From Synechococcus sp. HK05 (GTDB taxonomy: Bacteria > Cyanobacteriota > Cyanobacteriia > PCC-6307 > Cyanobiaceae), in the NCBI RefSeq assembly GCF_019104765.1, contig NZ_JAHRXJ010000009.1:1-64000 (forward strand): DNA of 64,000 nt. The letters run 5' to 3'. The position numbers were made by a program, and so were the translations under genes. Below, in pieces: positions 19,826-21,905 of this stretch (its first letter is position 1; each line of letters starts with the position of its first letter). Under the pieces are notes generated by a model. It searched no databases and was not told the DNA's origin. It saw nothing but the letters and a program-made list of their open reading frames with translations.

Positions 19826-20338
19826 ATGCCCATGGCCCTGCGCTGCAGCGTGCTAGCTCTGCTGAGCCTGTTGGGGGTGGCCGGGCTGGCCCAATGGCGC
19901 CTGTTGCCGCCTCTGGCCATGCGCACCGGTGCATCCACCGATCGGGTGTTGGCGGATCTGGCTGCCCAGGAGGCCCTGCAGGATGGCCGCGCCAGAGCCA
20001 CGGAGGCGTTGGGGCAGTTTGTGGGCGGCCAGATCACCCGCTACTTCTGGGGCAGTTTCACCGGCTATCTCGACGTGCTGGGCCTGGAGACCCCGGAAGG
20101 CATGGAGGCGCGCATCCGCGAAGCCCCCGACCAGGTGCAGCTGATGTTGATTCCCAGAGGTGGCGACGAGCGCTACGTGGCTCAGGTGCAGGCTGAAGAC
20201 AACGTGCCTCGTGGTGTGGCCTGCAGTGGTCGCGGCGAACCCGCCGCCTTCCGCTACGAGCGCGATGCTCTGCACTGTCCCCCCGGATGGACCGCCCTGG
20301 AGCTCCCCGCACGCCGCGGCGCGGGACAGCGCAGTTGA
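19826..20338 (+). CDS. Hypothetical exported protein
   Basis: The ~170-residue protein starts with a hydrophobic signal or anchor (ALRCSVLALLSLLGVAGLA). The rest is polar and mixed alpha/beta, with a conserved-looking GGQITRYFWGSFTGYLDV stretch and two cysteines near the C-terminus. It is probably periplasmic or membrane-anchored. Two ATGs (19826 and 19832) can serve as the start. I do not recognise a family. It follows the phosphopantetheinyl transferase by 34 nt, so the two may be cotranscribed without being functionally linked. Confidence 0.65.
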   Translation: MPMALRCSVLALLSLLGVAGLAQWRLLPPLAMRTGASTDRVLADLAAQEALQDGRARATEALGQFVGGQITRYFWGSFTGYLDVLGLETPEGMEARIREAPDQVQLMLIPRGGDERYVAQVQAEDNVPRGVACSGRGEPAAFRYERDALHCPPGWTALELPARRGAGQRS

Positions 20339-20454: not shown

Positions 20455-21135
20455 ATGCGCAAGGTTCTCCTCCCCTTGGCTGGCGCTGGTGTCCTGCTCG
20501 CAGGCCTCTCGGCCCAGGCCATTCCCCAAGGGCCTACCACCATCAATTCCGATCAGGCTGGTGTGCGCTACGGCGCTCCCACCTTCATCCAGCAAGGTCT
20601 CCCCACCCAGACCGCTCGCGCTGTCACTCAGGGTTTTGTTCGCTCCAACACCCTGCTGCCCCTGGGCGGCACTGAGGTGATCGACAACCCGGTTCCCAAG
20701 GATCTGAAGGATCTTTCGGGCTGGTCACGCGATGAGCTGCAGGCTGGCCTGCAGAAGGAATACGACGTCGACGTGGCTGCCGTGGCCCGTTTCCTCTATT
20801 CCGAGAAGGGTGAACAGTTCCTGTCTGAAAGCATTCAGCAGAACAACTACACCCCCTACTACAGCCAGAGCCACAGCCTTCAGGCCGTGCGCAGCGCGAT
20901 CATTCTCGACTCGGCCGATGGCAAGCTGTCGAGCTACGGCATGATGTCGAATCTGCCCACCGATCAGCGTCTGCAGGGCGCCATGAAGGTGTGCGATGTG
21001 AGCGATGCGTCCAATAGCCAGCGGGCGACCTCCCTGCTCAGCTGGTACATGAACACCCCGGCTTGCATTGCGGCCTACACCGCTGAAGCTCCCGAAGCAC
21101 CCAAGCCTGCTCCCGCGGTGCGCGGTCTTTGGTGA
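20455..21135 (+). CDS. Secreted DUF1400-like domain protein, copy 1
   Basis: The 226-residue protein has a clear signal peptide ending at AQA (residue 22). A linker and one domain follow, resembling the DUF1400 domain: the W-S-x-D-E-L-Q-A-G-L-Q segment, VARFLYSEKGEQFL, a SLQAVRSAIILDSADGKLSSYGMM stretch and LPTDQRLQ. In other cyanobacterial proteins this domain precedes an alpha/beta hydrolase; no hydrolase is present here. Two cysteines near the C-terminus could form a disulfide. The protein ends in PAPAVRGLW, identical to the tandem copy downstream. A strong terminator follows. Function unknown; periplasmic or extracellular location inferred. Confidence 0.85.
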   Translation: MRKVLLPLAGAGVLLAGLSAQAIPQGPTTINSDQAGVRYGAPTFIQQGLPTQTARAVTQGFVRSNTLLPLGGTEVIDNPVPKDLKDLSGWSRDELQAGLQKEYDVDVAAVARFLYSEKGEQFLSESIQQNNYTPYYSQSHSLQAVRSAIILDSADGKLSSYGMMSNLPTDQRLQGAMKVCDVSDASNSQRATSLLSWYMNTPACIAAYTAEAPEAPKPAPAVRGLW

Positions 21136-21169
21136 TCGGGTCGAAATCAGTTTCGGGTTGATCGGCCTT

Positions 21170-21204
21170 CCGGCCTCCGCTCCAGGAGCGGAGGCCGGCT
21201 TTTT
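21170..21204 (+). terminator. Strong rho-independent terminator between the DUF1400 copies
   Basis: A long GC-rich stem (CCGGCCTCCGCTCC pairing with GGAGCGGAGGCCGG) with a minimal loop is followed by five T. It lies 34 nt after the stop of copy 1, so the two paralogues are probably expressed as separate transcripts. Confidence 0.93.
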
Positions 21205-21296
21205 CTGGAAAAAATCTGAAGGCTGATGGCCGGCCTGGATCCAGGCGCCATACCGAGGAGGCCCCATGTGGCAGAGGTGATCTCTGCCTGATTCCA

Positions 21297-21905
21297 ATGT
21301 TGAAGGCTCTCCTTCCCTTGGCCGGTGTTGGTGTTGTGCTGGCCGTTGGACCGGCTCAAGCGATTCCGCTCACGGCTCGTACGGTTTGTGTGAATTGTCT
21401 TGGGCCTCGTTCCAATACGCTTTCGCCGATTGGCGGAACCCCAAGAATTGACAATCCAGTTCCTAAGAATCTCACGGATCTCTCTGGTTGGAGTGAGCAG
21501 CAGCTGGAGGCAGGATTGCAGAAGCAGTACGACGTAGGCGTTGTTGCTGTGGCGAACTTCCTTTACTCCTCCAAGGGTGAGCAGTTTCTTCTGAATAGCA
21601 TTCAGCAGAAAAACTACACGCCTTATTACAGCCAGCAGAAGAGTCTTCAGGCTGTCCGCAGTGCCATCATTCTTGATTCTGCGGATGGCAAGCTATCCAG
21701 CTACGGCATGATGGCGAAGCTGCCCACCGATCAGCGTCTGCAAGGTGCCATGCAGGTGTGTGATGTCAATGACATCAATAACAGCCAGCGCTCCACCTCA
21801 TTACTGAGTTGGTATATGAATACGCCCGCCTGCATCTCGGCCTACACCGCTCAGCAGGCCGAGGCCCCAGCCAGTCCTGCGCCTGCGGTGCGCGGTCTTT
21901 GGTGA
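21297..21905 (+). CDS. Secreted DUF1400-like domain protein, copy 2
   Basis: The 202-residue paralogue of the preceding gene has a signal peptide ending at AQA, a shorter linker, and then the same DUF1400-like domain with long identical runs (AVRSAIILDSADGKLSSYGMM and LPTDQRLQGAM). The C-terminal PAPAVRGLW is identical, and the two late cysteines are kept. An extra CVNC sits in the linker. Its codons are visibly richer in A and T than copy 1. The leaders of both genes share a CGCCATACCG-type stretch, so the duplication included upstream DNA. No hydrolase domain follows. Confidence 0.83.
   Translation: MLKALLPLAGVGVVLAVGPAQAIPLTARTVCVNCLGPRSNTLSPIGGTPRIDNPVPKNLTDLSGWSEQQLEAGLQKQYDVGVVAVANFLYSSKGEQFLLNSIQQKNYTPYYSQQKSLQAVRSAIILDSADGKLSSYGMMAKLPTDQRLQGAMQVCDVNDINNSQRSTSLLSWYMNTPACISAYTAQQAEAPASPAPAVRGLW

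Follow-up and report, generated by a model that had tools for sequence, protein, structure and literature searches.

Signals at the C-terminus of exported proteins are already a known kind, PEP-CTERM being one example. Passages of PMC1569441 describe, for the PEP-CTERM/exosortase (EpsH) system, a C-terminal homology region that is found on many unrelated exported proteins of one genome and is sporadic in its distribution. The PDZ domains of DegS and AlgW read free C-termini, where positions 0 and -2 set specificity, and the ligands known for them, such as WVF and YQF, are aromatic at both positions (passages of PMC8545111). Cyanobacterial Deg proteases carry one PDZ domain, and several Prochlorococcus strains have lost the HhoB/HtrA-type Deg or its PDZ domain (PMC4877387). 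The outer-membrane beta-signal is the last strand of a barrel, with a C-terminal aromatic residue (passages of PMC9705863). Here we describe a four-residue ending, RGLW, that closes P0001 and P0002, two adjacent genes of Synechococcus sp. HK05 within positions 1 to 64,000 of contig NZ_JAHRXJ010000009.1 (the window, which is the whole stretch of 64,000 nucleotides analysed). Both genes encode exported proteins with a lone DUF1400 domain, which we call family A, and the same ending recurs on many unrelated exported proteins of cyanobacteria.

RGLW endings on unrelated exported proteins

Among the best 80 of 143 family A loci, collected by homology with a query that includes the tail, three were cut by a contig end and two were frameshifted, leaving 75 complete intact genes. 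[VI]RGLW-COOH closes 70 of the 75 (37 with Val, 33 with Ile), and the other five tails read VQGLW (two), VRALW, ARPLW and VKGMW. Trp is the last residue in all 75, with nothing beyond the motif. Between a PAC[IV] motif and the tag, the 70 genes encode 13-29 residues that are rich in Pro and Ala and poorly conserved.

The DNA at these gene ends is itself uneven. The tag Leu codon is CTC in 64 of the 70 genes, compared with 29% in gene bodies (the window pair uses CTT), and the stop is TGA in 70 of 70, compared with 698 of 930 other frames; a nucleotide-level constraint at the family A gene end is possible. Both figures would suit the view that there is no common receptor and that the ending was spread by gene-end copying or reflects a DNA-level element, being functionless itself. 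We find that view barely credible: across families and genomes the tag codons vary and all three stops are used, the linkers differ, and the lineage dialects described below alter the protein ending in several families.

Beyond family A, the pattern [VIM][RS]G[LF]W-stop occurred in 11 of 16 further genomes of the window's taxonomic family (12 picked with family A and four without), while the reversed control gave 0 or 1 match per genome. The recurring tagged families, read from translated match places of which not all repeats were fetched, were the lone DUF1400 proteins (A); families B and C, for which Pfam gave no match; a small Cys protein (D), whose gene lies directly downstream of A in L064; an outer-membrane barrel followed by a Pro/Ala linker and then the tag (E); and a sixth family, F (L062). 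In the genome of the window, 10 of the 18 matches to [RS]G[LF]W-stop have a real stop, five of them ending long frames and five ending frames of 6-59 amino acids (aa). The long frames are P0001, P0002, a third paralogue with DUF1400 alone (C4:181299) and, unrelated to these, two proteins that begin with a hydrophobic stretch (C11:69171 and C11:334862), and in this genome it is the gene context of the matches, not their raw number, that stands out.

When P[VI]RGLW-type places were fetched from other genomes, 37 of 40 ended open frames of 146-526 aa; two of the remaining three were cut by a contig end and one ended an 11-aa frame. Counting each distinct frame of 75 aa or more that ends [VI]RGLW, in loci chosen around carriers or DUF1400 genes, we obtained 153 in 20 groups unconnected by blastp at E<=1e-3; the group of family A holds 95 of them. 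Of the 20 groups, two have a FecR match (in L210 above the cut-off, in L196 just under it) and a third, that of L203, resembles FecR by eye, so that about 18 kinds is a safer figure than 20. Two carriers cut by a contig end (L190 and L212) were left out of the 153, and two short frames (L068, 27 aa; L216, 11 aa) were taken as chance matches. The Pfam names among carriers were META, PG_binding_1, FecR, Fasciclin, Ferritin_2, Opacity and DUF1400, the others being unnamed. Lone DUF1400 carriers were also present outside the taxonomic family (L198, L200, L201, L204, L206 and L225, with Pfam run on L201 and L225), four carriers are barrels (L081, L104, L221 and L222), and one, L220, has N-terminal hydrophobic segments. 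By a crude heuristic of our own, 143 of the 153 tagged frames have a signal peptide, compared with 34.5% of 1063 other frames.

A separate set of RGFW places probably stems from a mobile element unrelated to the tag and was left out. One contig (G046 C1) has about 49 copies of the 18-mer GTCCGGGGCTTCTGGTAG, most of which were not fetched; the three that were (L058, L069 and L080) end 28-aa frames in VVRGFW, and similar RGFW places end 28-aa frames in G094 and 36-aa frames in G077.

Distribution and lineage dialects of the tag

Across 292 genomes of the phylum, CCNRTNMGNGGNYTNTGGTRR, which specifies proline, the tag and a stop, gave 63 matches in 43 genomes; inspection by eye showed P[VI]RGLW and a real stop at 59 of these places. 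The reversed control gave six matches. Swapping the R and G codons gave five matches in four of the same 292 genomes, none of which combined P[VI]GRLW and a real stop. All 43 matching genomes belong to the window's class (139 genomes), with none among the 153 genomes of other classes. Within the class the spread is patchy: every genome of family f11 matches (8/8), but only one of 31 does in family f7, where the match ends an 11-aa frame (the sizes of the class and of f7 are our own count of rows). Four small genomes of the window's family, G027, G033, G040 and G054, had no tag match.

A loosened pattern, CCNRTNNNNGGNYTNTGGTRR, was run over 30 genomes and revealed no clear further dialect, giving, in ten f7 genomes, 4 matches to the reversed control's 9 and, in ten other genomes that lack the strict pattern, 11 to its 6. 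Among those 11 are PIQGLW and PIPGLW ends with real stops in G247 (G247:C4:260652 and G247:C14:80438), perhaps a further dialect.

Homology searches for families B and C covered 23 genomes, most of them lacking the P[VI]RGLW pattern, and each family was found in 12; elsewhere the two were found through the tag, so that their RGLW conservation is there ascertained by it. The most constant feature of the homology-found genes was the terminal Trp, present in 11 of the 12 genes of either family. Genus g5 (nine genomes) has a dialect of its own that spans three unrelated families: family C ends QPLW in all nine genomes; family B ends xPLW in seven, VTPMW in one (an interrupted gene) and is tagless in one; and family A ends PLW in six, VRLLW in one and is tagless in two. 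None of these 27 tails reads RGLW. A tenth g5 genome, G180, for which the family A tail alone was read, is without the tag. In G057, two of the three families, B and C, have the new ending PIRALW in common. Three unrelated families shifting to the same new ending in one genus is what a shared reader of that ending predicts.

The window gene pair and lone DUF1400 proteins

P0001 (20455-21135, + strand) encodes 226 aa and P0002 (21297-21905, + strand) 202 aa. Each begins with a probable signal peptide of 22 residues (20455-20520 and 21297-21362), a short, basic and hydrophobic segment ending in AQA, after which cleavage would be expected. The DUF1400 profile, PF07176, matches residues 86-171 of P0001 (20710-20967) at 35.9 bits and residues 62-145 of P0002 (21480-21731) at 35.7 bits, both with E ~1e-8 and above the curated cut-off of 23.4 bits. 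The match is partial, covering profile positions 40-123 and 41-122 out of 127, and it is the sole Pfam match in either protein; the chains end 55 and 57 residues beyond it. PAPAVRGLW closes both, at 21106-21132 (stop codon 21133-21135) and 21876-21902 (stop codon 21903-21905). The initial annotation had described each protein as a signal peptide, a variable linker and one DUF1400-like domain ending in PAPAVRGLW, and the reading frames and the profile scores bear out that layout.

The two proteins are 66% identical overall. Their synonymous divergence (Ks) is about 1.6-1.8 and their replacement divergence (Ka) 0.14-0.20; over the DUF1400 domain alone, Ks is about 1.8 and Ka about 0.14, and the linkers differ, in keeping with the strong constraint on the domain that had been proposed. 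High synonymous and low replacement divergence together identify the pair as old duplicates under purifying selection, not a recent copy. Their shared PAPAVRGLW is accounted for by the RGLW ending that many unrelated exported cyanobacterial proteins carry.

The genes are adjacent and on the same strand, as expected of the tandem that had been described, and between them lies a terminator-like hairpin (13 pairs, 21170-21198) with a T run, the two together spanning 21170-21203 on the + strand; a single transcription unit for the pair is therefore not required. Just upstream, a small + strand open reading frame (ORF) with a hydrophobic start (window ~19826-20338) has similarly placed relatives in 13 loci and no Pfam match, the longer frame having been scanned. 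The downstream neighbour, on the opposite strand, encodes an MgsA/RarA-type AAA+ ATPase.

PF07176 is described as a domain preceding an alpha/beta hydrolase in passages of PMC11878206, and the passages on DUF1400 that were consulted do not treat lone copies. The window proteins resemble the family in scoring above its cut-off; they differ from it in having no hydrolase, in matching positions 40-123 of 127, in an unusual N-terminal region and in the C-terminal tag. The initial annotation was right that a hydrolase is missing: none is encoded downstream, and the 161-base intergenic gap, searched for a frameshifted continuation, holds short frames only. Its absence is not unusual, however. The same genome has eight DUF1400 matches at E<0.001, five in frames of 207-253 aa and three in frames of 544-570 aa (taken as hydrolase-type by length, two also by eye). 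DUF1400 was found in 25 of 25 genomes searched within the genus and in 121 of 126 genomes of the class, and among the roughly 150 matches listed for the class about 36, counted by eye, sit in open frames shorter than 300 aa. DUF1400 on its own is commonplace, both in this genome and among cyanobacteria at large, and the missing hydrolase is therefore not the noteworthy feature of the pair.

The suggestion that such proteins bind a partner in trans can be read in two ways. As first put, the lone domain would act on a DUF1400 alpha/beta hydrolase or on its substrate, and a tagged paralogue does have a long DUF1400 gene in its vicinity, at about 1 kb in the genome of the window (G000:C4:179666-181829; L007 and L008) and at no more than about 1-3 kb in G009, G014 and G016. 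Yet other ORFs intervene where we looked (L008, L122:13091-14659), the long gene differs between species, the window pair has no long DUF1400 gene nearby, and the tag is also found on proteins without a DUF1400 match. Nothing directly supports such a hydrolase as the partner, and we hold this version to be very improbable. In its other form the idea has support: the best candidate for a binding element is the C-terminal RGLW, which the initial annotation recorded without interpreting it and which is common to proteins without a DUF1400 match.

Relatives of P0001 at E<=1e-5 occur in 118 of 201 genomes of the family and 25 of its 59 genera. Among the best 80 of 143 loci, the named relatives include Vulcanococcus, Cyanobium and Synechococcus, the closest named one being Vulcanococcus. 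Three downstream gene clusters, judged from their strand, length and position to match the window's ATPase, HlyD-type and efflux-pump genes, occur in 60, 57 and 51 of these loci. With its neighbourhood conserved, the family A gene is therefore orthologous and vertically kept in most loci. In its members the signal peptide is followed by one helical domain of DUF1400 type, then by a C-terminal part in which two cysteines are invariant, and lastly by the flexible Pro/Ala-rich linker and the tag. A second copy in genus g5 (L119, L120, L017 and L018) is Vulcanococcus-like, 59-67% identical to P0001 and ends VQGLW; it lies away from the usual locus and was perhaps acquired horizontally. Frameshifted copies of the third lone-DUF1400 paralogue (L122:10238-10591 and L124) have tails that still read VRGMW and VRGLW.

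A model of the family A domain from RCC307 is a small helical domain of eight helices (predicted local distance difference test, pLDDT, 71.6; predicted template modelling score, pTM, 0.70) with a low-confidence tail; the whole-protein model is poor (pLDDT 56.6; best VIA Z 3.5). The lone domain had no sequence match to solved structures at E<=1, and searches with the domain model gave a best Foldseek E of 4.2 and a best VIA Z of 2.1 (root-mean-square deviation 6.0, 100 aligned). The lack of a convincing structural match to this model does not show a new fold.

Two other origins were rejected. P0001 matched nothing in the phage collection, and of 19 pattern matches in viral contigs none was confirmed as a relative, which argues against a phage or viral origin. 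PADLOC gave nothing for P0001 and, for P0002, only a Cas13b match at 10.6 bits (E 0.029) that we took as noise, and a defence system was likewise discarded.

A putative receptor and comparison with known systems

We consider it probable that P0001 and P0002 are old family A duplicates carrying a C-terminal recognition tag that is bound by a common periplasmic receptor. The tag, with the consensus [P/A]-[V/I]-R-G-L-W-COOH, is common to many unrelated exported cyanobacterial proteins and, once Sec has exported its carrier, would dangle from the linker into the periplasm as a free end. There a receptor could read the free C-terminus through its carboxylate, the last-position Trp and usually the Leu before it, and drift of the receptor between lineages would produce the dialects RGLW, RALW and xPLW. 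The carriers include soluble proteins of a periplasmic type, outer-membrane barrels and L220 with its N-terminal hydrophobic segments; in all of them the C-terminal end should be exposed to the periplasm, usually behind a flexible linker, and in the barrels it is the part beyond the last strand that should face that way. We infer a single receptor, located in the periplasm, and our leading guess for its C-terminus-binding domain is one of the PDZ type. Docking or sorting of envelope proteins would be its likeliest use, with turnover a close rival.

Comparison with known PDZ ligands shows agreement at the last residue, which is hydrophobic (Trp in 75 of 75), and none at -2, where an aromatic residue is absent; the dialects vary precisely at -2 and -3. 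If the tag were a quality-control signal, the PDZ domain of a Deg/HtrA-type protease would bind the C-terminal Trp and either degrade the carrier or be activated by it. Such domains read positions 0 and -2 (passages of PMC8545111), which suits dialects that differ at -2 and -3, and the losses of Deg or its PDZ domain in Prochlorococcus (PMC4877387) would fit the tagless G027, G033, G040 and G054, if our guess that these are Prochlorococcus is correct. The ligands in those passages of PMC8545111 are aromatic at 0 and -2, however, whereas position -2 of the tag is Gly, Ala or Pro; exact retention of a degron on outer-membrane barrels is hardly expected; and Peptidase_S41, the family of C-terminal processing proteases, is present in two copies in each of the 35 family f1 genomes searched, tagged or not. 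Turnover as the tag's role therefore seems unlikely to us.

No gene common to the carriers emerged from their neighbourhoods, with the exception of one lead. A YkuD-type L,D-transpeptidase motif, HG..SHGCVR, lies near carriers of different families, namely L190, L230 and L231 (one family), L232 and L233 (L230:5290-5883, L231:6360-6962, L232:7830-8423, L233:4215-4856) and near the second g5 family A copy (L017, L018, L119 and L120; L120:6491-7081), and one carrier has a peptidoglycan-binding domain. These would fit a role in cell-wall biology, with carriers tethered or processed at peptidoglycan, perhaps with L,D-transpeptidases. The motif occurs at only 4 of 20 wide carrier loci, though, all of them selected around carriers or DUF1400 genes and hence without a background rate of such enzymes; the enzyme is named from its motif and not from a profile search; and the tag offers a transpeptidase no usable amine, from Lys or otherwise. 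We treat the YkuD neighbourhood as a lead, not a result, and a cell-wall role as quite improbable.

Several observations weigh against a tag read by a common receptor. No receptor was identified, Peptidase_S41 copy number does not follow the tag, position -2 is Gly (Ala or Pro in the dialects) and not aromatic, and the carriers cluster neither with each other nor with one common gene. In the genome of the window, the raw count of the [RS]G[LF]W-stop pattern is barely higher than that of the reversed control (18 matches versus 14). The heuristic found signal peptides in only 8 of 12 family C proteins, which makes their export less sure. The family A query included the tail, and outside the 23 genomes searched by homology the B and C genes were found through it. 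Tagless family A members exist in five g9 genomes, in G133, G180, G191 and G199, and in the window's own genome (C11:127344 and C9:95209). Dialects are not always shared within a genome: in G057, B and C end PIRALW whereas A ends DRGLW, and G212 and G028 each have a further family A copy, which ends VQGLW. Further exceptions are G103, where B ends GLAIW and C has PIRPLW followed by KPGQK, G199, where B ends EQGVW, and G081, where C ends DTIW. The dialect shift across families in g5 may, moreover, be a single evolutionary event.

A more specific form of the receptor explanation, which we hold only tentatively, is a dedicated envelope tag-and-receptor system in cyanobacteria of several families: a tetrapeptide without a transmembrane helix (RGLW or a dialect of it) on unrelated Sec-exported proteins, one receptor deciding their destination, and co-evolution of receptor and tags by which entire groups of proteins would change dialect jointly. 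In such a system the receptor would possibly separate envelope from thylakoid-lumen proteins. To our knowledge, the routing of cyanobacterial Sec-exported proteins among the outer membrane, the periplasm and the thylakoid lumen is an open question, and a free C-terminal label that is both short and exact, carried by some 18-20 kinds of exported protein, offers a handle on it. If the receptor explanation is true, it also provides a first functional hint for many proteins that are annotated without a function and share only their last four residues.

In openly licensed PMC papers we found no account of such a tag, and RGLW and cyanobacteria appeared nowhere together; within those papers, a C-terminal signal consisting of just four residues, the last of them Trp, and varying in dialect between lineages seems to be undescribed for exported proteins of cyanobacteria. 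Its closest likeness is to PEP-CTERM, which also has a short C-terminal region, unrelated exported carriers and a sporadic distribution between lineages. The difference is that RGLW is the free C-terminus, with no PEP motif, no following transmembrane helix and no basic cluster, and NCBIfam gave no match at E<=1 for P0001 or P0002 and no sorting-signal model at E<=0.1 in 10 other carriers. A PEP-CTERM-like signal that fixes the final place of Sec-exported proteins, whether outer membrane, surface or exopolysaccharide, would suit the presence in one genome of several unrelated exported carriers that all possess a signal peptide and a linker, which is how PEP-CTERM proteins are described (passages of PMC1569441). 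It is nonetheless rather doubtful, as the motif is the extreme C-terminus with neither transmembrane helix nor basic cluster after it, and as L220, with its N-terminal hydrophobic segments, and the barrels L081, L104, L221 and L222 should differ in destination.

The recognition tag that we favour shares with the DegS/AlgW PDZ ligands a free C-terminus, a large aromatic last residue, display in the periplasm and the small number of residues read. Those ligands, in the passages of PMC8545111, are the ends of mislocalised barrels or of MucE and are aromatic at 0 and -2, whereas RGLW has Gly at -2 and, placed behind a linker, is a constant ending of many unrelated proteins. With the outer-membrane beta-signal the tag has in common a C-terminal aromatic residue on exported proteins; it differs in mostly following a Pro/Ala linker and in belonging to carrier families most of which are not barrels, and even in the barrel carriers L081 and L222 the last strand, judged by eye, precedes the linker.

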